A program made the position numbers and the translations under genes. The notes beneath the pieces are model-generated. The model worked only from the letters and a program-made list of their open reading frames with translations, searched no databases and was not told where the DNA came from. From Persephonella sp. IF05-L8 (lineage in GTDB: Bacteria; Aquificota; Aquificia; Aquificales; Hydrogenothermaceae), in contig NZ_JNLJ01000005.1 of NCBI RefSeq assembly GCF_000703045.1, forward strand, positions 101,023 to 165,022: DNA of 64,000 nucleotides, given 5' to 3'. How positions within the stretch are numbered: position 1 is the first letter of the stretch; the number at the start of each line of letters is the position of its first letter. Positions 46,622-62,455 of the stretch are shown piece by piece.

Positions 46622-47590
46622 ATGTGTATTCACGAGGAAAAATGTAACGAAATTATTAATTCTTTTGAAAAAAATAAACCTTTTCAATTTCTATCCATAA
46701 CAGAATTTAAGCAGAAATTTTCTGAACTTATATTTGGAGATGATATAAAAGAACTTATAAAAAAAATAGCAGATTCTCCAGAAAGATACATAGGTTTGTT
46801 TAGGCCTACAAAACCTAAAGCTAAGGTTCTTCAAAATCTCTTACAATCCCATGAAATTAAATTTGGTAATGCATTAGAGATTATATTTGAGTATTTATTT
46901 AGTAAAAACTCCTTTGAAATTTTCGGTAAAAATATTAAGTACAAAGGAAAAAAATTAAATATAGATTTGTTCTTTAAAAAAGATAATATACTTTATTTAG
47001 TAGAACAAAAAGTTAGAGATGACCACGATTCCAGCAAAAAAGAAGGTCAAATCAAAAATTTCCAAAAAAAGATAGATTATATTATAGATAATATGGAAAA
47101 TTACAATATAAATTCTGAAGAAAACATTGTAGCTATAATGTTTTTCGTAGACCCTGATTTAAGGAAAAACAAAAATTATTACGAAAAAGAAATAGAAAAA
47201 CTGAAAAGAATGTATGGAATAAAGATTTATTTATTTTATGGTAAAGAATTTTTTGATTTCTTTGGATTTGGCTATTTTTGGAATTTATTTGAATGTTATC
47301 TTTACCTCTGGAAAAAAGAAATCCCTGAGATACCTGAATTAAACTTTGATAAGAACTATGAAAAATCTGCACAAAAAATATTTGAACTTCCACCATCTAC
47401 TATACATAAATTACTTAGTAATAATAAACTTTGGAAAGAGAAACTTCCTCAAGTACTATTTCCAGAAGGAAAAACTTTAGAGCATTTAAAGGAACTGTAT
47501 CTATCAGACCCTTCAAAAACAAGAAAAACCATATATAAAAATATTGTAAACTTAATAACTGAAATTTTAGAAAGGTATTATAAAAAATGA
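46622..47590 (+). CDS. Putative type II restriction endonuclease (PD-(D/E)XK)
   Basis: A 322-residue protein coupled by a 4-base overlap to an adenine-specific DNA methyltransferase. A candidate PD-(D/E)XK core is Asp115 in LNIDLFF, then Glu128 and Lys130 in YLVEQKVRDDHDSSKK, which is the form used in several type II enzymes of the DpnII/HinfI/TdeIII type. Recognition sequence cannot be told. Codon use is AT-rich, consistent with lateral acquisition. Confidence 0.72.
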   Translation: MCIHEEKCNEIINSFEKNKPFQFLSITEFKQKFSELIFGDDIKELIKKIADSPERYIGLFRPTKPKAKVLQNLLQSHEIKFGNALEIIFEYLFSKNSFEIFGKNIKYKGKKLNIDLFFKKDNILYLVEQKVRDDHDSSKKEGQIKNFQKKIDYIIDNMENYNINSEENIVAIMFFVDPDLRKNKNYYEKEIEKLKRMYGIKIYLFYGKEFFDFFGFGYFWNLFECYLYLWKKEIPEIPELNFDKNYEKSAQKIFELPPSTIHKLLSNNKLWKEKLPQVLFPEGKTLEHLKELYLSDPSKTRKTIYKNIVNLITEILERYYKK

Positions 47591-48717
47591 AGCCACTAAT
47601 TAAATGGACAGGCGGTAAATATAGAGAAATAAAGTACTTTCAAGAATATATACCAAGAAACTTTGAAAGATATATAGAGCCTTTTTTTGGGGGAGGTGGA
47701 GTATTTTTTCATTTAGAACCTCAAAAGGCAGAAGTAAATGATATATCAAAAGATTTAATGCAATTTTATCTATATATACAATCAGAAAATAAGATTTTTA
47801 AAGAATTTATCTATTCAATTTCTTCCTTTTGGGATAATCTCAATGTTAAGGAACTACAACAATATATATATCCCTTCTTCAAAAACTATATAAATATTGA
47901 TATAAAAAACATAAACATAAGAGTTGAACTTCTGGAAAAATATATAATCTCTCCCATTGGACAAGAAGAAGAACTTTTAAAGTATGTAATAGATTCAATA
48001 ATAAATAAAATAATAAGATTAAAAGCTATTTATAAAAAAGAAAATAGAGTTTTTTCTTTAGAAGAGCTGGAAGACCATTTGGAAACTTCAATTAGAAGCG
48101 GTATTTATCTTTTTTTCAGAAAAGTATTAAACAGTTTAAAAGATGATTATAATGAATTAAAAATTGCTGTTTGGTGGTTTATTAGGGAACTTTGTTATGG
48201 CTCAATGTTTAGATATGATAAAAAGGGGAACTTTAATATTCCTTATGGAGGAATTAACTACAATAAGAAAAAATTATTACCTAAAGCCGACTATATTTTT
48301 TCTCCACGTACAATTTCACTTTTTAAAAAAACTAAATTTCATAATACAGATTTTGAAGAATTCCTTAATAATATTTATTTAAATGAAAACGACTTTATTT
48401 TCCTTGACCCTCCTTATGATAGCAATTTTAAAGAATATGATAAAAACTCATTTACACAAAAAGACCATAAAAGATTAGCAAACCTATTAAAAAACATAAA
48501 AAAAACAAAATGGTTATTAGTAATAAAAAATACGCCCTTTATTTTATCTCTGTATGATGAATCTGGAATATATATTGATTCTTTTAGAAAGAAATACAAC
48601 TATAATGTTAGAGGTAGAAATGTAAGAGATACAGAACATTTGATAATTACAAATTATAACCCATATAATATAACAACTATCCCTATTAAAAATGAAAGAC
48701 AATACTCGCTTTACTAA
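47587..48717 (+). CDS. D12-class adenine-specific DNA methyltransferase
   Basis: A 376-residue N6-adenine methyltransferase of the Dam/D12 (alpha) class. Motif X is KWTGGKYREI (6-15), the SAM motif FFGGGGVFFH is at 33-42, and the catalytic DPPY is at 274-277 (FLDPPYDSN). Compared with Dam (about 280 residues) there is an insertion of about 100 residues between 60 and 170, presumably part of target recognition. It protects DNA from the co-encoded endonuclease. The two genes form a compact type II system. Confidence 0.92.
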   Translation: MKPLIKWTGGKYREIKYFQEYIPRNFERYIEPFFGGGGVFFHLEPQKAEVNDISKDLMQFYLYIQSENKIFKEFIYSISSFWDNLNVKELQQYIYPFFKNYINIDIKNINIRVELLEKYIISPIGQEEELLKYVIDSIINKIIRLKAIYKKENRVFSLEELEDHLETSIRSGIYLFFRKVLNSLKDDYNELKIAVWWFIRELCYGSMFRYDKKGNFNIPYGGINYNKKKLLPKADYIFSPRTISLFKKTKFHNTDFEEFLNNIYLNENDFIFLDPPYDSNFKEYDKNSFTQKDHKRLANLLKNIKKTKWLLVIKNTPFILSLYDESGIYIDSFRKKYNYNVRGRNVRDTEHLIITNYNPYNITTIPIKNERQYSLY

Positions 48718-52133: not shown

Positions 52134-52231
52134 GATATTACCCTTTAAGGATATTCTTATACCTTTAATTTAGAGTTTGATTTTATGAAAAGCAATTAGA
52201 TATGAAGAATTTTTAAGATTTATTTATTTTT

Positions 52232-52636
52232 TTAAATTTGGTTAAAGACAACTTTTAATTTTAAAGAAAGAGATAAACTAATTTCATCTCTTTCGTGTAT
52301 TTTTCTTTTTATATAAGGTTTTATTTTTTCTCCATTTACGTAAGTTCCATTTGTTGAGTTCAGGTCTTCTATGAACCATTCTTCATTTTCAAAGCTTATT
52401 TTTGCATGTTTTCTGGAAACAGTTGGAAAGTCTTTAAAGATTTCGGAACCGATTGCCTGTCTTCCCAGGATGTCTCCGTTTTTTGCAGCAATTTCTTTTC
52501 CGTTTATTACAAGCTTTATACTTTTTTCTTTTTCTTTAGAAGTAGGGGAAACAACGGATAAATCTTCCAGGCAGTTCGAGCATACCGGAGCATTTTCAGG
52601 ATTTTCGGTTCCGCAAGCAGGGCATATTTTAATCAT
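52232..52636 (-). CDS. Zinc-ribbon plus FHA-domain protein
   Basis: A 134-residue phosphothreonine reader. The N-terminal zinc ribbon has C5, C8, C19 and C22 (CPACGT and CSNC). The FHA domain (about 40-132) has the conserved GR at 58-59, SRKH at 74-77 and NSTNGTYVNG at 93-102, so pThr-binding residues are intact. It is the last gene of the phospho-signalling region and overlaps the preceding gene by 4 bases. A kinase and PP2C phosphatase are encoded 7-10 kb upstream on the same strand. Zinc-ribbon-FHA proteins often report kinase activity to an effector. Confidence 0.88.
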   Translation of the reverse strand: MIKICPACGTENPENAPVCSNCLEDLSVVSPTSKEKEKSIKLVINGKEIAAKNGDILGRQAIGSEIFKDFPTVSRKHAKISFENEEWFIEDLNSTNGTYVNGEKIKPYIKRKIHERDEISLSLSLKLKVVFNQI

Positions 52637-53271
52637 TCTTGCACCTCTTTCATTATTTTTTCCAGTATTGGATATTTATCAGGTTTGACATTTCTTAGTT
52701 TTTCTGCCTTTTTAGTTTGTGAAGCTCCTATTATTGTTGCGATGGCGGAAATCAGAGCCGTAACCAATAGAATAGCAGGGGATACTTTAAATTGTTGTGT
52801 GTATGTTGTAATTGACAGAACTATTGTGATTATTCCTGTTATAGTTGCAAGTAAGAATAAAGCTATTGCTGTGTTTTTTTGTTTTTCTTTTTCTTTCAGG
52901 ATTTGTTCTGTTTCTTGTTTTAGTTTTTTAAATTCTTCCAGGCTTAGCTGGGATATCTTTTCGAGATCTGGAGAAAAAAGAGGGATATATTCTTCACCTG
53001 AGTTTGAAAGGCAGTTTATGGCTTTTTCTAATTTCAGTTCATCTATGGCGTCAGTTTCGTCCATTTGATTTATTTTATTGATTTGTTCTTTTAATTTTTT
53101 GTACTCTCTTACGGTAAGTTTTTTATCTTCTGCTTTTTTGATTGATTTTAGTATTTCAGGGCTAAAAGGGAAAACATACTCTGCAAAGTATGGATCGCAG
53201 ACTTCATCCGTTTTTTGTGCTATTTCTTTTACTTTCTTTTTTATTTTTTGCAGTTCTTTTTTGGTAATCAT
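52633..53271 (-). CDS. Unrecognised two-helix membrane protein in the kinase/FHA locus
   Basis: A 212-residue protein from ATG 53271. The N-terminal 145 residues are charged and helical, with two related segments: residues about 20-40 contain YFAEYVFPFSPEILKSIKKA and residues about 95-115 contain YIPLFSPDLEKISQLSLEEF, each followed by REYKKLKEQ or KLKQETEQ. Two membrane helices follow (about 134-160 and 166-190). The start at 53271 is chosen over 53292 because an extended -10 promoter element lies between them. It overlaps the FHA gene by 4 bases. Confidence 0.7.
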   Translation of the reverse strand: MITKKELQKIKKKVKEIAQKTDEVCDPYFAEYVFPFSPEILKSIKKAEDKKLTVREYKKLKEQINKINQMDETDAIDELKLEKAINCLSNSGEEYIPLFSPDLEKISQLSLEEFKKLKQETEQILKEKEKQKNTAIALFLLATITGIITIVLSITTYTQQFKVSPAILLVTALISAIATIIGASQTKKAEKLRNVKPDKYPILEKIMKEVQE

Positions 53272-53278
53272 TGCGACT

Positions 53279-53287
53279 ATTATACCA
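53279..53287 (-). promoter_or_regulatory. Extended -10 promoter element
   Basis: On the minus strand the sequence TGGTATAAT is an exact extended -10 (TGnTATAAT). Only seven bases separate it from the ATG at 53271, which puts the expected transcription start at or next to the start codon. No ribosome-binding site is present, consistent with a leaderless mRNA. No good -35 is seen, as is usual for extended -10 promoters. Confidence 0.55.
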
Positions 53288-53427
53288 AACATATCTATAT
53301 CTTGTTATTTTTAAATTACAAATAATTTGTTATTTTACTCTCTATAAATTCTCCTACTAAGCAAGTTATTAACTTAAATCTCAGATTCGTGATTGGCTAT
53401 TTTGCTTTATATTAAGAATTACTGTTT

Positions 53428-54519
53428 TTAACATTTGATATAGACTTTTTCGATTCCTTTTTTTGCGTGGATTTTCTCTAATTCCGGATACTTTTCCTTA
53501 GCTTTCACATACTCACAAATTTCCGTGAGATTTTCTTTTTTTATATAATCAAATGGTAGTCGTTTTCCTTTGAACTTTATTTTCCACATTGGAAATGCTA
53601 TAAACGGCTTGGGAAATTTTTGATAAATTTTTTCTTTCAAAAGGCTGTATAATGTGTTTGCAGAAAAGATTGTTGAAACGGCGGTTAATACTGTGTAAAA
53701 GAAAGCTTCTCCATATAAAAATACAAATAAAAACCCAACAACAGATAAGAAAATTGCTATAGGTATGAAAAATTCATTTATATACAAGGATTTTACTAGA
53801 GCCTGATTTCCGCTTATTTCTTCCTTATACAGAGCTTTGTATTTTAAATACCCTTTGCCTGCTTTAGAAAATATTCTTTCCAATTCCCTTTTTTCTTCTT
53901 CGGAAATATCCTTTGGAAGTTCTTTTTTAAAAGGTATTTTTCCGTTTATACTTTTTAAAAATCCATGGGCTCTTGTAGTGTCTTCAAATAAAAATGCAGA
54001 GTGTTCATAAAATGGATTAAAGTATACAGGCAAGTCTTCTATATCTTTTTTAAAGCGATCGGGAGTTTCATTTATTGTTTTATACTTTCTAAGGTAATAC
54101 AGTGTTTTTATCTTTTTTGAAGGAAGTTTTTTAACAAGCCTCTTTTGAAGGATAAACTTTTTTCCGACTTCTATTTGCGAACTTAAAAAACCCAAAACAA
54201 ATGCATTTCTAAATCCGTAGGTCAGAACTTGCAAGTCTTTTTTATATGAATGGTAAGCACATATCCATGCTATACTTTTTTTAACCTTTTCTGCCGTTTT
54301 TGAAGGAATCAATGATAAAAGTTTTCTTTCGTATTTTGGGTTTTTTTCGTACGAAAAAGCTTCTGTTATCCAGGGGTTCTCCTTTATCAAATTGATTATA
54401 TGATCAAGTTTCTTTTTGCCCAGATTTTCAAAATGTTTAAGCATATAAAATTCTTCTTTTTCCTTTAGTAGCTGCTCTATTTCTTCTTTAGAAAGCTTGT
54501 ACTCTCTTAAAACACCCAT
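53428..54519 (-). CDS. Unrecognised protein with C-terminal membrane hairpin in the kinase/FHA locus
   Basis: A 363-residue protein. The N-terminal 240 residues are basic and helical, with several aromatic clusters (YHSYKKDLQVLTYGFRNAF, DLPVYFNPFYEHSAFLFED). Two membrane helices lie about 253-295 (FFIPIAIFLSVVGFLFVFLY and a second, FYTVLTAVSTIFSANTLY). The last 65 residues are basic. No domain recognised. It starts 11 bases after the stop of the acidic protein gene and is likely co-transcribed with it. Confidence 0.72.
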   Translation of the reverse strand: MGVLREYKLSKEEIEQLLKEKEEFYMLKHFENLGKKKLDHIINLIKENPWITEAFSYEKNPKYERKLLSLIPSKTAEKVKKSIAWICAYHSYKKDLQVLTYGFRNAFVLGFLSSQIEVGKKFILQKRLVKKLPSKKIKTLYYLRKYKTINETPDRFKKDIEDLPVYFNPFYEHSAFLFEDTTRAHGFLKSINGKIPFKKELPKDISEEEKRELERIFSKAGKGYLKYKALYKEEISGNQALVKSLYINEFFIPIAIFLSVVGFLFVFLYGEAFFYTVLTAVSTIFSANTLYSLLKEKIYQKFPKPFIAFPMWKIKFKGKRLPFDYIKKENLTEICEYVKAKEKYPELEKIHAKKGIEKVYIKC

Positions 54520-54530
54520 TTTCTTATCTC

Positions 54531-55016
54531 CTAAAAAGGTGGTTCATCATCAAAATCAAAATTATACCCTTCATTTTCCTCAAAATCTTCAAAATTATCA
54601 AGGCCGTTAATAGGCTGAATTTCATCCATGTCTTTTATTTCTTGTTCTATTTCTGCAATTTCTTTTTCTGTTAGCTCCATTCCTTCTTCCAGTTTATTTA
54701 AGTAGCATTCAAAGACCTCTTCTATTTCTTGCTTTTTATTAAATTCTTCTTCCATCATCTGTATTGTTGCCTGGGAAAGGGTTACGTATGGTTCCTTTTG
54801 AGCTCTTTCTACCATTCTTTTGTACTTAAGCTTTAATTGAAGATTTATTGCTTTTTCCACCAAGTCTTCCATTACTTTTCTTTTTAGTTCAAACGGCAGT
54901 TTCATATTTTCCAGCTCTACCATAGCAAGAAGCTGCACGTTAAATGTATCTGCTTTTTCTTCAGGAATTCTGTTAAGAATCTTTTTCCAAATCGTGCTTG
55001 TTATTGCTTTGTGCAT
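54531..55016 (-). CDS. Unrecognised small helical protein with acidic tail in the kinase/FHA locus
   Basis: A 161-residue protein. Residues 1-75 are helical and basic (MHKAITSTIWKKILNRIPEE, VMEDLVEKAINLQLKLKYKR). Residues 95-130 form an acidic helix with repeated glutamates. The tail (131-161) is strongly acidic and ends FDFDDEPPF. Acidic tails of this type occur in chaperones and DNA-mimic or binding adaptors. Upstream lies a tandem promoter/operator-like repeat (55031-55083). Not recognised. Confidence 0.7.
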   Translation of the reverse strand: MHKAITSTIWKKILNRIPEEKADTFNVQLLAMVELENMKLPFELKRKVMEDLVEKAINLQLKLKYKRMVERAQKEPYVTLSQATIQMMEEEFNKKQEIEEVFECYLNKLEEGMELTEKEIAEIEQEIKDMDEIQPINGLDNFEDFEENEGYNFDFDDEPPF

Positions 55017-55030
55017 GATAATTTTCTTTT

Positions 55031-55083
55031 ATTACAATAAATTGTTTATGTAAATATTACAATAAATTATAGTTTATGTAAAT
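55031..55083 (-). promoter_or_regulatory. Tandem 25-28-base repeat upstream of the acidic protein gene
   Basis: Two adjacent copies on the plus strand: ATTACAATAAATT-G-TTTATGTAAAT (55031-55055) and ATTACAATAAATT-ATAG-TTTATGTAAAT (55056-55083), with copy 2 longer by three bases. On the minus strand each begins ATTTACATAAAC; the outer copy contains TATAAT (55066-55071), and TTTACA with a 17-base spacer to TAATAT is also possible. Copy 1 contains the small palindrome ACAATAAATTGT. Likely a promoter with an overlapping operator. Confidence 0.5.
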
Positions 55084-55126
55084 TAAAGTAGAACAAATTT
55101 TTTAAATTTGATAAAATCCAGCAAAT

Positions 55127-55303
55127 TTGGAAAAAATTGAAAATAGAACGCATAATAATTCAGGCAGCAAAAGAACTAAAATTCAAATTAACCCAAAATA
55201 CACAAAATTGATAGCATTTGAACTGGAAAAATATAAAAAAGAATCCATAATAAAAGAATTTTTCACAAGTAATAAGTCTATAAAACCTGAAAAACCGATC
55301 TAA
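55127..55303 (+). CDS. Possible 58-residue small protein (TTG start)
   Basis: An open frame from TTG 55127 to TAA 55301-55303. The predicted peptide (MEKIENRTHNNSGSKRTKIQ, then a segment with YTKLIAFELEKYKKESIIKE) has a short beta-like stretch followed by a helix, which resembles the build of small antitoxin or DNA-binding proteins. No ribosome-binding site is seen and the surrounding sequence is decayed, so this may be a remnant or chance. Confidence 0.22.
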   Translation: MEKIENRTHNNSGSKRTKIQINPKYTKLIAFELEKYKKESIIKEFFTSNKSIKPEKPI

Positions 55304-55440
55304 ATATCTTAAACAATCATAGCCTTAGAAAATCATCTTGTTTAAAGTACAAAAATAAAAACTTAAAACAAGCAAAAAAACAATATACAGAAATCCTTAA
55401 AATCATTATGAAGAAACATTTGAAGAAAACTTGAAATACA

Positions 55441-55592
55441 AAGCAAAGAAATGTACTTTTTTCTGGATCTACAGAAGCTGAAGGGTTCTTATCGTCATGA
55501 AAAGGACATCTTAGTCTGAATGAACTGCCGGATTTCTTATATTTAATTCCCTTTTTTTCCAGTACTTGAAGTATAAATCCAGGAGGTAACTC
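55441..55592 (-). pseudogene. Truncated CHC2 zinc-finger primase fragment
   Basis: On the minus strand the frame reads ELPPGFILQVLEKKGIKYKK, then a Ser/Gly turn and RLRCPFHDDKNPSASVDPEK, ending STFLCF. This is the N-terminal zinc-finger signature of DnaG-type primases (CPFHxxKxPSxxVxPEK...C). After LCF the frame runs into unrelated hydrophobic sequence, to a stop at 55317, where CxxCG should follow. There is no start codon with a ribosome-binding site. The source was probably a phage- or plasmid-type primase, since the cellular dnaG would be intact elsewhere. Confidence 0.6.
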
Positions 55593-55662
55593 CTTTTTTA
55601 TTTGCCTTTCCTTTTTATTTTTTGTTTATATATTATTTGTTTAAAGTTTGCAGGAGGTATAA

Positions 55663-56046
55663 ATGGACTTTATTTTATCTGCAATAAATCCAAAGTATTT
55701 ACTTTTGGTGGTTTTGTTTTCAGTTTTGTTCCATATTATTCATGGTTTATTTTTCATTTCTTTTGTGGACATGTTTAAGAACACCCAAAATATAATAAGT
55801 CTTGCTATATTTTCCTTTTTTATGGGGAAATTTTTGGTTTTCCAGTGGTCTCAAACAGTTTTAGATTTTTCAAAATTTTTTGGATTTTATTCTGATAGGT
55901 TATTTTTGTTATTGGTTATAGATATTATAATTGTTCCACTTATTGTTTTACCGGGGTTTATTTCTTTTCGTTTTTCAAGACTTTATTCCCATATAGGCAT
56001 TTATCAGCAGCTTTTTAGAAGGAATTCCGACAATAGTTCCGCCTAA
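55663..56046 (+). CDS. Small membrane protein, opposite strand to the AAA+ operon
   Basis: A 127-residue protein with three hydrophobic segments (about 10-35, 42-60 and 76-103) and a basic tail. AGGAGG lies 5 bases before the ATG, one of the best ribosome-binding sites in the region, which supports a real gene. Its last 72 bases overlap the 3' end of the radical-SAM gene on the other strand, a long convergent overlap. No family recognised. Confidence 0.55.
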   Translation: MDFILSAINPKYLLLVVLFSVLFHIIHGLFFISFVDMFKNTQNIISLAIFSFFMGKFLVFQWSQTVLDFSKFFGFYSDRLFLLLVIDIIIVPLIVLPGFISFRFSRLYSHIGIYQQLFRRNSDNSSA

Positions 56047-56538
56047 AATCTGGAGGGGCTGCTTTTTGCTTTCTAAAAACTGCCTGTAATAATCCTTAAA
56101 TTTTTTGTTGAAAACTTTTGCCTTTTGATTTTCAGAGCCCTTCCAACCAGATTCTGTTTCGAGACCTGCTATAAAAGGTCCGGATATCAAAAGAGAGCAG
56201 AGCTTCTTTGTCCAGGGAAAATCTTCTAACACCTTTTCTTCCGTGTATCCCGTGTAAATGATTATGTCTTCAACTCCTTTTTTTTTCAGTTCTTCAAGAA
56301 ATTTTTTTAATTCTTCGGACTGGTCAAATGGCTCCCCTCCGGATATAGTAAAGGAATTTGATATTTTAGACAGTTTCTTGGCAAGCAATATAGGGTCTTC
56401 CTTTATTCCATCCTCAAAGCTCCATGTTTCAACCGACATGCAGCCTCTGCACCTTATAGAGCACCCCTGAAGCCAAACTCCCACTCTATTTCCGGGACCA
56501 AGAGTTTTAACCGGATAAAGCACTCTGGCTACTTTCAA
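55975..56538 (-). CDS. Radical-SAM 4Fe-4S activase-like protein
   Basis: A 187-residue protein with the NrdG/PflA-type cluster motif CxxxCxxC at C26, C30 and C33 (QGCSIRCRGCMSVETW) and SGGEPFDQSEEL for SAM binding (about 66-77). The start is TTG at 56538, because AAGGAG lies six bases upstream; an ATG nine codons earlier also exists. Either start overlaps the AAA+ gene. Proteins of this type make a glycyl radical or modify a peptide; no glycyl-radical enzyme is next to it, so its target here is unknown and may be another product of the locus. Confidence 0.82.
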   Translation of the reverse strand: MKVARVLYPVKTLGPGNRVGVWLQGCSIRCRGCMSVETWSFEDGIKEDPILLAKKLSKISNSFTISGGEPFDQSEELKKFLEELKKKGVEDIIIYTGYTEEKVLEDFPWTKKLCSLLISGPFIAGLETESGWKGSENQKAKVFNKKFKDYYRQFLESKKQPLQILGGTIVGIPSKKLLINAYMGIKS

Positions 56539-58237
56539 TTTTTTCTCCTTCCAGTTTTTCTCCAAATTTTATTTTTACAGTATCACCGGTTTTGACATCC
56601 AGCTCAAATAAAAGCTCTGATAATGGATTTATGAATATTTCCTCTATTGTGTTTCCAATTCCTCTACCACCCATTGATAGATCTTTTATTGAAGCTTCTA
56701 AGAGTTCATTCATATTTTTTATTTCCACTGTTATTCCTCTTTCCTTTTTCAGTTTTTGGACAATGTTATTTATCATTTTCTGTGCTATCTGTTTTCCTTC
56801 CCTTTCCCTTATAAAATCAAATGCCACAATGTTTTTTCCTATTCTGTTAAGTATTTCCGGTCTTTGTATTTCTTTAAAGTAGTTTTCTATTTCCTCTTTT
56901 ATTGTTTTTTCAACCTTATTAAAATCCATTGTAGAGTTTACTTTTGAAGCTCCGAGGTTTGAAGTGAATATTACGATACATTCGGAAAAATAAGCCTTTT
57001 CTCCCCTGCCTGATGTTAGAACACCTTCATCTAACAGCTGCAGCATTATATCCATTATTCTTGGGTGAGCTTTCTCTATCTCGTCAAATAAAACCACAGA
57101 AAAAGGATTTTCCCTTATTTTGTTTATCAGCTCCCCTCCGCTTTCGTATCCAACGTATCCCGGAGGAGCTCCAAGAAGTCTCTGGTCAGAATGGTCGTGC
57201 CTGAATTCTGACATATCAAATCTAATAAGGGCATCTTCACTTCCGAATACAATTTCTGCGATTGATTTTGCAAGCTCCGTTTTTCCTACTCCTGTAGGTC
57301 CTGCCAGGAATAAAACACCTTTAGGTCTTTGGGAATATTTTGAAAACTGTGCTCCTGATAGATTAAAAAAGGCTCTTCTTATTATCCGGGAAGCTTTTTT
57401 GATTGCTTCTTCTTGTCCCTTTACCCTTTCCTGTATGAGACTGTTTATAGATTTTACTTTTGATTTTTCAATACTTTCCCACGGACTTTCCTTTATTCCC
57501 GTCTTATATGTTCTTATTGCTTGAGATATGTTTTCAGGCTGAATGTTGTTTTGTTTTGCTATCTGGAATATTGATATTATCTCCCTTGAAAGCATTCCGT
57601 AAGTTCTGTCTGTTATTTCGCTTATCAGCTTTTCGTCGTTTTGTTTGTTGAATATTTCCAGTAGTTTTTTGATGACCTGTCTTCTTGTTTTTATGTCAGG
57701 TTTTTGTATTAGGATTGATTTTACGTTGGGCTTTTCAACGTAGTACCATGCAGGGAAATCCCCTTCTCTATCCAACAGATATATTACAAGGTTGTGTTTT
57801 ATACCCTTTTCAGTCTTTGTCTTTTTCGCTTTTACCGCATCTTTGAACATTTTATATAGAAACAGATTAAAGTCGTTTTTTGCTACCTCTCCCATTCTGG
57901 AGGCAAAATTTATGAGCAGGGCTATGTGGTATTTCTGGTTTTGTATAATTTTGCTTATTGTTTCATAAGATTTCTCAAGGCTTTCTTTTTTTTCTTTATC
58001 CAGAGAGCCGGCCATTTCTTCAAAGGGTTTTCTATCTCCTGCAACGTGAAAAAACCCTGAAAGAGGGGTGTATAAAACCACTTGGTCATATCTCTGTTTT
58101 TCCGTAAGGTGCCTTCCGAGGAAATCTATCAAGCTAAGGGGAATTCCTTCAAACAAAAAGGAGTCATATATATTTCCAGATAGTAGAAAATGAGCTGTCT
58201 GAGGCAGAAATAAATCAAGTTCTTTTACCCATTGCAT
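56507..58237 (-). CDS. ClpA/B-type AAA+ ATPase with degenerate N-terminal ATPase half
   Basis: A 576-residue protein. The C-terminal half (about 265-560) is a complete Hsp100 D2 module: KGQEEAIKKASRIIRRA, Walker A GPTGVGKT at 313-320, pore loop GYVGYE at 360-365, Walker B VVLFDEIEKAHP at 381-392, sensor 1 FTSNLGA, arginine finger R465 in EILNRI and sensor 2 GGRGIGN at 523-529. The N-terminal half (1-250) has an AAA-like outline, with a strand reading LLSGNIYD near 18-25 but no P-loop. There is no Clp N domain, no middle domain and no ClpP-binding loop evident. It is probably an unfoldase or disassembly motor with its own adaptor region. Confidence 0.85.
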   Translation of the reverse strand: MQWVKELDLFLPQTAHFLLSGNIYDSFLFEGIPLSLIDFLGRHLTEKQRYDQVVLYTPLSGFFHVAGDRKPFEEMAGSLDKEKKESLEKSYETISKIIQNQKYHIALLINFASRMGEVAKNDFNLFLYKMFKDAVKAKKTKTEKGIKHNLVIYLLDREGDFPAWYYVEKPNVKSILIQKPDIKTRRQVIKKLLEIFNKQNDEKLISEITDRTYGMLSREIISIFQIAKQNNIQPENISQAIRTYKTGIKESPWESIEKSKVKSINSLIQERVKGQEEAIKKASRIIRRAFFNLSGAQFSKYSQRPKGVLFLAGPTGVGKTELAKSIAEIVFGSEDALIRFDMSEFRHDHSDQRLLGAPPGYVGYESGGELINKIRENPFSVVLFDEIEKAHPRIMDIMLQLLDEGVLTSGRGEKAYFSECIVIFTSNLGASKVNSTMDFNKVEKTIKEEIENYFKEIQRPEILNRIGKNIVAFDFIREREGKQIAQKMINNIVQKLKKERGITVEIKNMNELLEASIKDLSMGGRGIGNTIEEIFINPLSELLFELDVKTGDTVKIKFGEKLEGEKIESSQSALSG

Positions 58238-58238
58238 C

Positions 58239-59429
58239 TTAGTCCTCTTTTGCCAGTTGTTTTTTGTGCTCTACAGTTTTTTCTTTTATTTCGTAATTTA
58301 TGTCTAACAGGTCGGGTATATTTGTTATCTGGGATACTATGATTCCATCTTTGCTAATCTGGTTTAATATATCTTCTTGGTCTTTGCACCATATTTTTAA
58401 CTCTTCTTTGTCTTTTATCCTGTCGTATTCTGAAGGTTGATGGTCTATTTCTCTGATGAATTTGCTTGTTATTTTTCCGTTATTTATCTTGATAGCGACC
58501 TTGTATCCTTCTTTTTTGGAAAAGAGCATGAATACACCATCTGATATTAAGGTGTATCCTCTTTCTTCAAGTTTTATTTTTATTTTTTCTTTTAGTTTTG
58601 TTTCAAGCTTTTGAATGGTTTGTTTTTCTTTCCAGTCTGAGTATTTTACCAGAAAGTCAGACAGATCCTGGACTGATAGAACAGGTTTTTCTATTATTTT
58701 TTCTGCTTCTGATTTAAAAGGCTGAGGTAGTTCCGCAGATAGGGCTTCAATCAGCATTTTTATAGCCAGACTTCTATTTTTAAGTTCTTTTTCCCTGTTT
58801 TCTTTTAATTTTTTTTCTTCCTCCAGAAGACTCAGGGGGTTTTTTTCTGTTTTTTCTTCAGTTTTTAGGCTTGAAATTATTTCTTCCAGTTTTTCTAACC
58901 CTTTTTCTTCCCTTAAAGCTTTTTCCAGGAAAGGTATTATTTTTTTTATTTCTCTTTCAGCTTTATCAATATCTTTTTCAATCAGGGATTTATCAAAATG
59001 GGAGATTTTTTGTAAGACATCTTTGCTAAAGATAGTTTTTCCTTCTTTTATTGTTTCTATTTTTTTTAGTATTTTTTCTATATTCTTTCTTTTTTCTTCA
59101 ACGAAGGCTTTTTCTTTTTCTATCAGGTTTAGTATCTCTTTTATATAATATTCTGCTCCGTGAAAAATTCTGATAAACGGGTCTTTTCGAAGATGAATTT
59201 TCATTTCTGTATAATAATAAGGAGTGTTTTCGCTCAGCATTGACCAGAGGTCTTCACGGGCCTTTTCTATTTCTCTGATGACATTTTTTCTTCTTTTTTC
59301 TTCTCTTATTTCTTCAGCCTTTTCCAGCAGTAGTTTGTACATGTTATCAATTACTTTTGCAGCTTCTCTTTTTTTCTGGTTATATTCTTCTTTGTTGACT
59401 TTTATTTGAAATGCAGAAACTGAGCTCAT
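58239..59429 (-). CDS. Long coiled-coil protein of unknown function
   Basis: A 396-residue protein. Residues about 10-290 are almost entirely charged alpha helix with coiled-coil pattern (KEEYNQKKREAAKVIDNMYK, EKLEEIISSLKTEEKTEKNP). Residues about 295-380 form a compact alpha/beta domain (YTLISDGVFMLFSKKEGYKV, AIKINNGKITSKFIREIDHQ). It lies between the PP2C and AAA+ genes with 1-base gaps, so it is clearly part of the operon and a candidate substrate or adaptor of the AAA+ motor. No family recognised. Confidence 0.75.
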   Translation of the reverse strand: MSSVSAFQIKVNKEEYNQKKREAAKVIDNMYKLLLEKAEEIREEKRRKNVIREIEKAREDLWSMLSENTPYYYTEMKIHLRKDPFIRIFHGAEYYIKEILNLIEKEKAFVEEKRKNIEKILKKIETIKEGKTIFSKDVLQKISHFDKSLIEKDIDKAEREIKKIIPFLEKALREEKGLEKLEEIISSLKTEEKTEKNPLSLLEEEKKLKENREKELKNRSLAIKMLIEALSAELPQPFKSEAEKIIEKPVLSVQDLSDFLVKYSDWKEKQTIQKLETKLKEKIKIKLEERGYTLISDGVFMLFSKKEGYKVAIKINNGKITSKFIREIDHQPSEYDRIKDKEELKIWCKDQEDILNQISKDGIIVSQITNIPDLLDINYEIKEKTVEHKKQLAKED

Positions 59430-59430
59430 T

Positions 59431-60081
59431 TTAAACCTCTGCTATTATAAATGTGGTATTGTCATATAGGTTTTTTGTTTTTAACTTTTGCATTATATTT
59501 GAAACTGTTTTTTCAATATTTTCCTCGAAAATATCTTCCAGCTCCTGTTCTTCAAATACACTGTAAAATCCATCTGTGGCAATCAGGAATATTCCTTTAC
59601 TTGTTTCTCGGATAAATATTTCAGGGGTTGTGTCCGTTCCTACTGCTGAGTATAGAACTCCGTTTTTAGAATGGTCAAATGAAAGTATTCTTAGAAATTT
59701 TCCTGCCTTTTTGTAAACCCTGCTATCTCCACAGTTGAAGACGGTAATTTTATCACTTTCCATTTTTATCCCAGCTACCGTTGTTGCCATTCCGTTTAGC
59801 GAAGGGTCTTTTTCTGCAAGTTTTTTTAATTTTTCTTTTGCTCTAAAAATTGCCGCCTCTATATCCAGATTTTCAAAATCTGCCAGTGTTTCCAAAACGG
59901 ATTTTGATGCCACTTCTCCTGCTGCAGCTCCACCGACTCCATCTGCAACCGCAATTATTTTTGAAGGTGCTGATTCTCTCGGCTTTTCCATATCTTCCTG
60001 AATAACTTTTTTATCTATGAGTAGAGCATCTTCGTTTTTATCCCTGTAGTTTCCTCTATTAGTGAAGTAGAACGCCTTCAT
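59431..60081 (-). CDS. PP2C-type protein serine/threonine phosphatase
   Basis: A 216-residue stand-alone PPM/PP2C domain. Metal and catalytic motifs are intact: NYRDKNEDAL (N16, E17, D18), VADGVGGAAAGE with D47, GMATTVAG, CGDSRVYK, IATDGFYSVF and the late YDNTTFI. It overlaps the kinase gene by 23 bases, so the two are translated together. It presumably reverses phosphorylation by the kinase and resets the FHA reader. Confidence 0.93.
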   Translation of the reverse strand: MKAFYFTNRGNYRDKNEDALLIDKKVIQEDMEKPRESAPSKIIAVADGVGGAAAGEVASKSVLETLADFENLDIEAAIFRAKEKLKKLAEKDPSLNGMATTVAGIKMESDKITVFNCGDSRVYKKAGKFLRILSFDHSKNGVLYSAVGTDTTPEIFIRETSKGIFLIATDGFYSVFEEQELEDIFEENIEKTVSNIMQKLKTKNLYDNTTFIIAEV

Positions 60082-62059
60082 CTTTAAGAAACTCCTCCAG
60101 TGATTCTATGTGGTTTATGAAATGGGACCACTGGTCTATTTTCACCTTGTAAGAGTTCTTTTCCTTTTTTTGTTCTATTAGCTCCAGTTCCCCCATTGGA
60201 ACTACGTAGCCCGCTTTGTCCAGTTCTTTTAGTTTATTTTTTACTCTGTTTATTCTTTCCCTTTCGAGAGCTTCCCATTTTATTCCTGTTTTTTCAACTA
60301 AAACCATAGCAGACACTGCGTCTATCAAATCTTCAATTTTGTCTGATTTCCCTTTCCATGCAGCAAGTGCTATTTCAAACGGATAAAGGTGTGTTTTAAC
60401 TTTTAGGTTTTTAATAATAGGTTGGGCATTTTCAAGGTAATTTTTATCCTTTCTTACAAGTTCGACGACTTTCTGATAGTGGAACATATCTATGTTCTCA
60501 AAATTCTCTTTTTTTAATAGCTTTCCTGTTATTCTTTCAAAGTGTTGAGAGAAAAACTCAAACTCTTCTTTTGTTAAGGGGTTTTCAAGTACTTTGATAA
60601 AGCTTTTTCTAGAGAAGTCCAATCTTCTGGTAACCGCAAAGTTTTCTGAAACCATAGAAGCAAATAGATGTAATGCTTTTGTTTTAGATTCTAAAGCTTC
60701 CTCGGCTTCAAGAAATTTATTTGCCATAAAACTAAGGAACTCTCCATCTTTTGTGTATTTAACCAGTTTTTCAAATTTTTTCAGGTCTTTTTTATTTTCT
60801 GATATCAAAAGAGCAGAAAGGGGATTAGGTTTAGAAAGCCCTTTTATTGCAGAAAGGGTGTCTTCAAAAAGCTCAGAGAGGTTTATCTTGTTTCCATAAG
60901 GCTTTATTTCCAGTGATGGGGCTATTGTATGGATTATTTCTACAAGGGCTATTTCAGGGTCTTTTTCATTTTCCAAAATTTCCCATACCCTGGTGTCCAA
61001 ATCAAGTTGTTTATTTTCTTTAAGAAGTGTATTTAGATGTCCTCTCTGGACAAAAGAAACTGCATATTTAAAGGTTTCTTCATTTGCCTGCATTGCTCCT
61101 GCGAGTTCTTCAAGTGAGCTGTATTCCTTGTTGTTAAACAGGTATCTTCCAGATGTTACTTTTTCTTCATAAAATACACTTGGGATATTTCCCGAAAGCC
61201 ACAGGTCAACTTCTTTTGCACCCCATCTTTTCCTCCTGTTTTGAGTTAATAGACCTTTTAGGAGGGTTTTGACATCTTCGTCTAATTCTTTTGGAATTGG
61301 GACTTGCTCGGATGTTATCTTAAACATCACCGTTTTTGGGTCTAAACCCTTAAAAGGATTTTTGTTTAGAATGTCTAAAATTACCATTCCAAATGACCAG
61401 TAGTCTGCTTCCTTTCCCATTATTCCTGAGAAACTTTCAGGAGCAGAGTAAACAGGAGTTCCTTTTACTGTTGTTATTTTCTTTGAAAATTCATCATCCA
61501 ATAAAGAGGATATACCAAAATCTGTTATTACCAGATTTAGAGGATTTTCCTCTTTAACCAGAATATTTGAAGGCTTAATATCCCTGTGGATTATGTTTAA
61601 AGAATGTAGAGCTTTTAGAATCTGGTTTATTTGGTCTATTATCTGTATTAAAAGATTTTTATTGGGTGTTTTACCTTTCAGGAAGTTTTTAATATTTCCG
61701 TTTTTCATGTATTCCTGTATTTCGTAAAATCTGCCTGTTTCTTTGTCTATGCCAAAATCAAGTATTTTTACCACATCGTTTGGTAATTTTTCTCCGACCT
61801 CTTTGATTTTCTGAACGACTTCTATTTTGGGGATTATGCCTTTTCTATAGAGTTTCAAAAGCGTGTTATTTTCAAGGAGAAAAAGGTCAGCTTCCCCACC
61901 TTCTGCTTCAAACTCTTTTACAATTTTCAACCCCTGGAACTGCTTTATAGATGCAGAAGATTTTTCGACCGGAGCGTTTTCAACAATTGTTACCTCAGGT
62001 GTTTCAACAACTGTTTTCTGTTCTTCAACTATGGTTTTTTCAAAAATTGTTTTTTCCAT
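60059..62059 (-). CDS. Hanks-type Ser/Thr protein kinase with N-terminal TxxE repeats
   Basis: A 666-residue protein. The N-terminal tail has four TIFE/TIVE/TVVE/TIVE units at T4, T9, T16 and T24. The kinase domain spans about 45-300: a loose glycine loop (EFEAEGGEADLF), Lys69 in LLKLYRK, catalytic HRDIKPSN (158-165), DFG (180-182), an activation loop with T196, T197, T201, and APE (206-208). The remaining 350 residues (300-666) are helical with no known domain; no membrane segment or PASTA repeats are present. ATG 62059 has AAAAGG nine bases upstream. First gene of the operon. Confidence 0.92.
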   Translation of the reverse strand: MEKTIFEKTIVEEQKTVVETPEVTIVENAPVEKSSASIKQFQGLKIVKEFEAEGGEADLFLLENNTLLKLYRKGIIPKIEVVQKIKEVGEKLPNDVVKILDFGIDKETGRFYEIQEYMKNGNIKNFLKGKTPNKNLLIQIIDQINQILKALHSLNIIHRDIKPSNILVKEENPLNLVITDFGISSLLDDEFSKKITTVKGTPVYSAPESFSGIMGKEADYWSFGMVILDILNKNPFKGLDPKTVMFKITSEQVPIPKELDEDVKTLLKGLLTQNRRKRWGAKEVDLWLSGNIPSVFYEEKVTSGRYLFNNKEYSSLEELAGAMQANEETFKYAVSFVQRGHLNTLLKENKQLDLDTRVWEILENEKDPEIALVEIIHTIAPSLEIKPYGNKINLSELFEDTLSAIKGLSKPNPLSALLISENKKDLKKFEKLVKYTKDGEFLSFMANKFLEAEEALESKTKALHLFASMVSENFAVTRRLDFSRKSFIKVLENPLTKEEFEFFSQHFERITGKLLKKENFENIDMFHYQKVVELVRKDKNYLENAQPIIKNLKVKTHLYPFEIALAAWKGKSDKIEDLIDAVSAMVLVEKTGIKWEALERERINRVKNKLKELDKAGYVVPMGELELIEQKKEKNSYKVKIDQWSHFINHIESLEEFLKDEGVLLH

Positions 62060-62078
62060 AATTTGAACCTTTTTAATT

Positions 62079-62091
62079 AATTATAGTTTAT
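62079..62091 (-). promoter_or_regulatory. Putative promoter of the kinase operon, shared motif
   Basis: On the minus strand ATAAACTATAATT carries a TATAAT (62085-62080), 21 bases before the kinase ATG. The identical 13 bases occur at 55065-55077 upstream of the acidic-protein gene, the first gene of the second unit of the locus. No match to a -35 is seen. The shared sequence suggests common control. Confidence 0.45.
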
Positions 62092-62145
62092 TAACATATC
62101 AAAGAGATCAAAAAGGTCAAGGGGTTTTAGATAGGGGTGGTTAGT

Positions 62146-62289
62146 TTATAAGTCCATAAATAAGAAATTCCAGTAAATAAAAACTGAAGCCGAAGCTCTT
62201 TTCATTGAGTCAATACTTTTCGCATAAGCTTTCATCCTTCTTCTGAACATTGCCAATCTATCTCTTGTTATTAAATTATAATCCTTCAT
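62146..62289 (-). pseudogene. Possible C-terminal remnant of a transposase
   Basis: A 47-residue frame MKDYNLITRDRLAMFRRRMK followed by AYAKSIDSMKRASASVFIYW and NFLFMDL. Its pattern (RRR-x-AYAKS...L/M-x-RA...YWNF) resembles the C-terminal end of IS1-like transposases, which read RRRTNTYAKS and then a helix and an aromatic YW/F-NF end. No ribosome-binding site, no upstream extension and no terminal inverted repeat were seen, so it is a decayed remnant at best. Confidence 0.35.
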
Positions 62290-62455
62290 TTTAATTTGTT
62301 AAACCAATTTTCTTGTTTTTTCTATTACCTCAGGTTTTCATATGGATAAAATATCTTGATGTTTTCAAGAAAAAAGAAATTCCTGATTTCTAAATAAAAA
62401 TTCAATTTTTAATATGAATAGCTAACTAAAGTTGCTCAATTTCTATTTTCAAACT

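Follow-up and report, generated by a model that had tools for sequence, protein, structure and literature searches.

What is governed by a gene set that joins a Hanks-type Ser/Thr kinase, a PP2C phosphatase and an FHA protein to a coiled-coil protein, an Hsp100-type AAA+ motor and a radical SAM protein? Such a set occurs in Persephonella sp. IF05-L8, on a stretch of 64,000 nucleotides (contig NZ_JNLJ01000005.1, positions 101,023 to 165,022; hereafter the window, whose coordinates are used throughout). Together with two transmembrane (TM) proteins, TM2a and TM2b, and a small helical protein, CC161, these six proteins are encoded by nine listed genes at 52232-62059, all on the minus strand (Table 1). 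The first-pass annotation of this DNA had proposed a phospho-controlled system acting on a membrane complex. A phospho-controlled module is retained here, while the best reading of its role has become a different one: tentatively, and with slightly less than even confidence, we regard the locus as a Hydrogenothermaceae version of a conflict (defence-type) module that recurs, is mobile, is controlled by phosphorylation and has swappable effectors. We infer a defence function from helicase-nuclease partners, defence neighbourhoods and a patchy, mobile distribution, and the target would most likely be invading DNA or phages.

Recurrence of the gene set in Aquificota

Profile searches of 136 Aquificota genomes, using a profile specific to the first half (D1) of the AAA+ protein, found this protein in six; as the genomes are related, these counts support no independent-sample statistic. 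The same six genomes were recovered with the kinase profile (plus one other) and the coiled-coil profile (plus two others), while the radical SAM profile matched five of them and one other, the contig of the sixth ending inside the AAA+ gene. The core genes have not been thrown together by chance: the first-pass annotation had made its claim depend on their recurring together in other genomes, and they do. One might argue from TM2b and CC161, about 58 kb away from the core on a relative's plasmid, that unrelated accessory genes happen to be neighbours here, but for the core this is already contradicted and scarcely tenable, its genes co-occurring in every genome with the AAA+ protein and in another phylum as well. 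TM2b and CC161 are the least constant part of the set, and the constant core is kinase, PP2C, coiled-coil protein (CC396), AAA+, radical SAM and FHA.

A congener (G002) carries the order TM2a-FHA-kinase-PP2C-coiled coil-AAA up to a contig end, with a CRISPR array and Cas6 beside it, and another family member (G033) has kinase-PP2C-coiled coil-AAA-radical SAM-FHA on a 147-kb contig. In the sister genus, PP2C-coiled coil-kinase is set among housekeeping genes (G020), and radical SAM-FHA-MscS is found on other contigs in G020, G027 and G032, with the FHA gene directly upstream of MscS. These loci speak for a rather unlikely alternative to immunity, namely a phospho-regulated membrane-stress or osmotic response, in which the kinase would sense envelope or heat stress, the FHA protein would gate a channel (MscS or a 2-TM protein) and the AAA+ and radical SAM proteins would maintain the channel complex. 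The radical SAM-FHA-MscS order common to the three sister-genus genomes, the housekeeping surroundings and the TM hairpins seen in several kinases and partners would all suit it; however, the set is plasmid-borne and patchy in the window's own genus, CRISPR and methyltransferase genes are among its neighbours, and the partners elsewhere are helicase-nucleases rather than channels.

Two further observations concern these genomes. A large helicase-like open reading frame (ORF) upstream of the G033 cluster (L010:321-3983) was rejected as a component and assigned to the plasmid backbone, because a similar ORF lies beside ParA on the plasmid of a relative (G006). In G027, MNT-like nucleotidyltransferase and HEPN-like genes of toxin-antitoxin type stand between the kinase and AAA+ genes (L012:3781-4517).

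Relatives on plasmids of other phyla

Outside Aquificota, full-length relatives of the AAA+ protein (38-40% identity) sit on plasmids, where the AAA-radical SAM pair recurs with interchangeable partners. On a plasmid of Aristaeella lactis (Firmicutes) the run comprises a DUF4011-SF1-MTES_1575 helicase-nuclease, a Ser/Thr kinase (STK), a coiled-coil protein, FHA, radical SAM, AAA, PP2C, DUF6273 and an STK. Rhizobium and Caballeronia have AAA, radical SAM, a zinc-ribbon/STK/DUF4011/SF1/MTES_1575 protein of about 2,090 residues and a coiled-coil protein, and five proteobacterial plasmids (of Acinetobacter, Polaromonas, Moellerella, Leisingera and Photobacterium) keep a constant order of SF1 helicase, PIN, hypothetical protein, AAA and radical SAM. 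The D1 and radical SAM sequences of Acinetobacter are homologous to the window families (hhalign E-values of 2.3e-17 and 1.4e-22). Helicases of these relatives score against PADLOC models of defence or candidate-defence proteins (PDC-S37, 1308 bits; Hhe, 545; MkoA, 320), and the Geminocystis copy has an anti-phage dCTP deaminase and toxin-antitoxin genes nearby. Because the wider AAA-radical SAM family pairs with helicase-nucleases that resemble candidate defence proteins, a conflict module becomes the best reading in place of one that governs a membrane complex. Phage carriage was rejected, as phage records and IMG/VR gave no match. A copy labelled Gracilibacteria (L018) was set aside as probably misbinned; its contig is 4.2 kb long, the bin measures 2.7 Mb, and it is the sole match in a sample of 380 genomes of the phylum.

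An island derived from a plasmid

The genes hisC and pdhA (E1 alpha) are adjacent, about 70-170 bp apart, in all eight congeners where both were found, and an alignment of four congeners places the edges of the island between them at 52197-52203 and 62446-62455. In the relative G006 the same genes lie on a separate 163,841-bp contig (C2) that encodes a Rep3 initiator, ParA and a TraC-family conjugation ATPase. Three island segments match this plasmid (55439-62149 at 94.1%, 53428-55019 at 88.7% and 52320-53271 at 93.4%), as does a further small piece near 55104-55275. The nine-gene block has moved from a plasmid into the chromosome as an island of plasmid-derived segments, in line with the mobility and the flanking gene debris noticed in the first-pass annotation. 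That debris is a truncated CHC2-primase-like gene, whose remnant matches C2 at 155175-155337, where the gene is intact (Zn_ribbon_DnaG/Toprim).

The intervening plasmid genes are debris, while all nine genes of the system stay open, with ratios of non-synonymous to synonymous substitution (dN/dS) of 0.06-0.30 against the plasmid copy in G006. The nine genes are therefore real and under purifying selection, and this together with the decay of the plasmid genes suggests that selection has kept the whole set together, with TM2b and CC161 as part of it. The same observations bear on a quite unlikely reading in which the module helps conjugative plasmids such as C2 to persist or compete (stability, entry exclusion or control of rival plasmids). 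Its case is the copy on this conjugative plasmid-like contig with Rep3, ParA and TraC, the copies on conjugative plasmids of Rhizobium, Moellerella and Leisingera, and the plasmid debris in the island; yet purifying selection persists after the island's plasmid genes have decayed, and the genes are chromosomal in the sister genus. For the conflict module that we prefer, the distribution is patchy and often plasmid-borne, and the empty hisC-pdhA site in congeners, together with the plasmid copies, provides a natural with/without comparison.

Beyond the pdh operon, near the island, lies a MethyltransfD12 gene for a D12-class adenine methyltransferase (47587-48717, plus strand). It is preceded by an ORF without family match, possibly a restriction enzyme, in a GC-poor stretch at 46622-48717 (plus strand). 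C2 of G006 (L058-L066) also holds a ThiF-like gene and two near-identical transposase/resolvase pairs, at 25.2-27.4 kb and 136.9-139.1 kb.

Kinase, phosphatase and FHA protein

All nine ORFs were found where the first-pass annotation had placed them, and Pfam and NCBIfam agreed with its domain assignments. Its account of the junctions also stands: kinase and PP2C genes overlap, as do AAA+ and radical SAM genes, and 1-base gaps flank CC396 on the PP2C and AAA+ sides. A 4-base overlap joins the TM2a and FHA genes, and 11 bases separate TM2b from CC161. The catalytic motifs of the kinase, PP2C, FHA, second AAA+ half (D2) and radical SAM proteins are all intact: HRDIKPSN158, DFG180 and APE206 in the kinase; NEDA16, DGVGG47, DG170 and DN207 in the phosphatase; and GR58, SRKH74 and NGT96, which are also conserved, in the FHA protein (dN/dS 0.28). 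In this genome of 1.83 Mb in five contigs the kinase is the sole match above the Pfam kinase cut-off, with one weak match (21.9 bits) on contig C1.

Four T-[IV]-x-E motifs fall within the 41-residue N-terminal tail of the kinase, versus none in the 613-residue body (shuffle p <= 5e-5, for a motif picked after the sequences had been seen). Similar arrays occur in the tails of all six Hydrogenothermaceae kinases tested (shuffle p from 5e-5 to 9e-4), and both Aristaeella kinases have T[IV]xN repeats (TVIN, TIFN, TVLN, TIIN). Since FHA domains bind phosphothreonine peptides, the T-[IV]-x-[E/N] repeats are candidate docking sites for the FHA protein. Such an array read by an FHA adaptor would amount to a wiring rule based on phosphothreonine docking and, if true, would account for the use of different effectors by a single core.

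AAA+ motor and radical SAM protein

The D2 half of the AAA+ protein meets the description of the Hsp100 D2 clade of the AAA+ superfamily, with Walker A at 313, Walker B at 381, the pore loop GYVGY at 360, sensor 1, an arginine finger at 459 and a D2-small domain (AAA_2, 5.9e-51; ClpB_D2-small). Motif inspection found no P-loop in residues 1-290, as the first-pass annotation had noted for the first half. A model of D1 built from five sequences (pLDDT 83, pTM 0.81) matched the AAA+ proteins RuvB, DnaA, TRIP13 and AFG2 in Foldseek (E about 1e-5, probability 1.0), and on this model the first half is a dead D1 with an AAA+ fold. The ClpP-binding IG[FL] loop was likewise absent on motif inspection, so that, judged from its motifs, the motor is more likely to remodel proteins than to feed a protease.

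The radical SAM protein (Fer4_12, 6.7e-25) belongs to the radical SAM superfamily by its C35-x3-C39-x2-C42 motif, which is invariant across relatives. The known partners of NrdG-type radical SAM activases are chiefly glycyl-radical enzymes. The window protein shares with NrdG and the PFL activase the 4Fe-4S CxxxCxxC motif and minimal size; unlike NrdG, it scores 82.9 against an equivalog cut-off of 126.1, and the genome's NrdD sits elsewhere with its own activase-like gene next to it, so a role as ribonucleotide reductase activase was rejected. If true, the repeated association of such a protein with an unfoldase and a phospho-switch, across plasmids from several phyla, would mean that radical chemistry has been put to a new use in mobile-element conflict.

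Membrane and coiled-coil proteins

TM2a adjoins the FHA gene in every case (G000, G002 and G006; dN/dS 0.10). It was rejected as a SLATT 2-TM effector, as the match covers the TM region alone and falls below the cut-offs (17.3 versus 41 bits in NCBIfam, E 0.0034; 11.2 versus 26.3 in Pfam, E 0.4). Neither TM2b (dN/dS 0.23) nor CC161 has a family match in Pfam or NCBIfam. Homologues of TM2b occur beside the cluster in G002 (38%) and on the plasmid of G006 (81%), where it is again paired with CC161. The earlier proposal of a membrane complex built from the two hairpin proteins thus divides: a membrane partner is plausible, given that FHA lies upstream of MscS in the sister genus and overlaps TM2a here, whereas the complex itself is unsupported, TM2b and CC161 lying so far from the core in G006.

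CC396 has no Pfam match, and a PDB comparison of its fold, with a C-terminal bbbb-alpha domain in the structure model, gave nothing below E 0.001. It has counterparts, both modest matches, in Rhizobium (hhalign 1.4e-4, probability 52%) and Aristaeella (2.2e-5, 76%), and the coiled-coil proteins of the PIN-type loci of Acinetobacter and Polaromonas show no detectable homology to it. A relationship to DUF1257 or DUF2997, suspected from the gene sets at L027 and L029, was dismissed, since none of seven members matched either family in Pfam. In the G006 plasmid copy, a frameshift and in-frame stops interrupt the CC396 gene (L009:8349-9538).

Comparison with described systems

The kinase, PP2C, FHA protein and Hsp100-type motor are shared with the regulatory kit of the type VI secretion system (T6SS; PpkA, PppA, Fha, ClpV). 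A detached or remote kit of this or another contractile secretion system would account for these functional parts and for the D2 score of 218 bits to TssH/ClpV, though D2 scores 266 to ClpB; it is already contradicted and very improbable. The sheath protein TssC/VipB (PF05943) is absent from the genome, with a positive E. coli control, which upholds the detachment from T6SS claimed in the first-pass annotation. The TagH, TssH and Stp1 models score far below cut-off (884.95 for ClpV/TssH), the AAA+ protein has no active D1, and, unlike T6SS, the set combines a dead D1, a zinc-ribbon FHA protein, a radical SAM protein and a coiled-coil protein with no secretion genes in the island. With ClpB, ClpC and ClpA the motor shares the D2 Walker motifs, pore loop and arginine finger; unlike them it has a P-loop-less D1 and no ClpP loop and scores far below all Clp cut-offs, and a ClpB/ClpC-type two-ring unfoldase, which requires a second active AAA+ domain, was rejected. 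As regards TerY-P systems, none of the nine proteins matches vWA, although TerD and TerY were not searched genome-wide.

Mokosh (MkoA/MkoC) and the helicase-nuclease defence proteins Hhe and PDC-S37 are also close, since the relatives in other phyla combine a Ser/Thr kinase domain with an SF1 helicase and a nuclease. The Mokosh pairing of an STK with the SF1 helicase MkoA and its PLD nuclease is partly seen in those relatives, with MTES_1575 or PIN as the nuclease, and no helicase occurs among the window proteins. Mokosh is not known to include AAA, radical SAM, coiled-coil, FHA or PP2C partners. Conflict systems centred on AAA proteins and GTPases have been described that contain, separately, a kinase and PP2C (in some with vWA), a radical SAM protein or a SLATT 2-TM protein (Burroughs et al. 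2020, PMC7159879). Their GAP1-N2 GTPase-centric and vWA-MoxR/FtsH ternary systems are likewise AAA/NTPase-centred and modular, with swappable effectors; in contrast, the nine genes here lack vWA and GAP1, and an Hsp100-type motor replaces MoxR/FtsH. None of the open-access papers searched describes this gene set, and no described system that was found has the core of dead-D1 AAA, radical SAM and coiled-coil protein.

Proposed mode of action

Upon a trigger, the kinase would phosphorylate threonines of its own tail array, and the zinc-ribbon FHA protein may then dock on the phosphorylated tail, bringing the effector encoded beside its gene. This effector would be the 2-TM protein in the window, the MscS channel in the sister genus (membrane proteins with a putative effector role) and helicase-nucleases in other phyla, and would permeabilise the membrane or attack nucleic acid, halting the invader or the cell. 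The radical SAM enzyme may render one component competent by modifying it, CC396 being a conceivable substrate; the single-ring motor would remodel or disassemble the assembled complex by threading one of its subunits; and PP2C would reset the switch. A bolder claim, possible if doubtful, is that this constitutes a new phosphorylation-wired immune class, with a core of kinase, PP2C, coiled-coil, dead-D1 AAA+ and radical SAM proteins, a tail array read by an effector-swapping FHA adaptor, and radical-based arming.

Several points weigh against a conflict module. No PADLOC model fits the whole set, and the effector candidates of the window, TM2a and TM2b, belong to no confident defence family. 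The window copy has no helicase-nuclease, the DUF4011-SF1 and PIN partners occurring in other phyla only. The housekeeping setting in the sister genus suits a stress role, as does MscS, which is usually an osmotic valve, and the T[IV]x[EN] motif is a post hoc choice.

Table 1. Features of the island and related loci (window coordinates, or locus identifier and position)
Feature	Coordinates	Strand	Evidence
Plasmid-derived island, about 10.25 kb, between hisC and pdhA	52204..62446	.	Alignments; empty site in congeners
Zinc-ribbon FHA protein, 134 aa	52232..52636	-	Pfam FHA 7.2e-18, Zn_Ribbon_1; motifs intact and conserved
TM2a, 2-TM protein	52633..53292	-	Weak SLATT_1; adjoins FHA
TM2b, 363 aa, C-terminal TM hairpin	53428..54519	-	No family match
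CC161, acidic helical protein upstream of TM2b	54531..55016	-	No family match
Remnant of truncated plasmid CHC2-zinc-finger primase-like gene	55439..55601	-	DNA match to relative's plasmid
ORF127, small hydrophobic protein, 127 aa	55663..56046	+	Convergent with radical SAM gene; dN/dS 0.17
NrdG/PFL-activase-like radical SAM protein	55975..56565	-	NrdG 2.2e-23, below cut-off; CxxxCxxC intact
Hsp100-type AAA+ protein, degenerate P-loop-less D1 (1-256) and active D2	56507..58237	-	ClpB 6.9e-79 over D2
CC396, coiled-coil protein with C-terminal bbbb-alpha domain	58239..59429	-	Structure model
PP2C phosphatase	59431..60081	-	PP2C 5.8e-11, Stp1 4.2e-29
Hanks-type Ser/Thr kinase, 666 aa	60059..62059	-	Pkinase 2e-34
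Kinase N-terminal tail, four T-[IV]-x-E motifs, candidate FHA docking sites	61937..62059	-	Motif count, shuffle test
Radical SAM-FHA-MscS loci, three sister-genus genomes	L100:2674-4878, L101:6012-8221, L102:6816-8818
Radical SAM with other AAA and DUF1257/DUF2997	L027:9676-12543, L029:4252-7989, L026:8980-12603

Additional observations

ORF127, not listed in the first-pass annotation, overlaps the radical SAM gene and is also present on the plasmid of G006. NrdG-like radical SAM genes lie beside another AAA ATPase and small genes of DUF1257 and/or DUF2997 type on plasmids of Paenibacillus, Rhodococcus and Arthrobacter, possibly a parallel motor-plus-radical SAM system. On plasmid pTRESU01 of Treponema succinifaciens, an NrdG-like radical SAM gene and an AAA gene lie inside a cluster resembling a contractile injection system (VgrG/Pvc8, baseplate V; L030:2573-14174).

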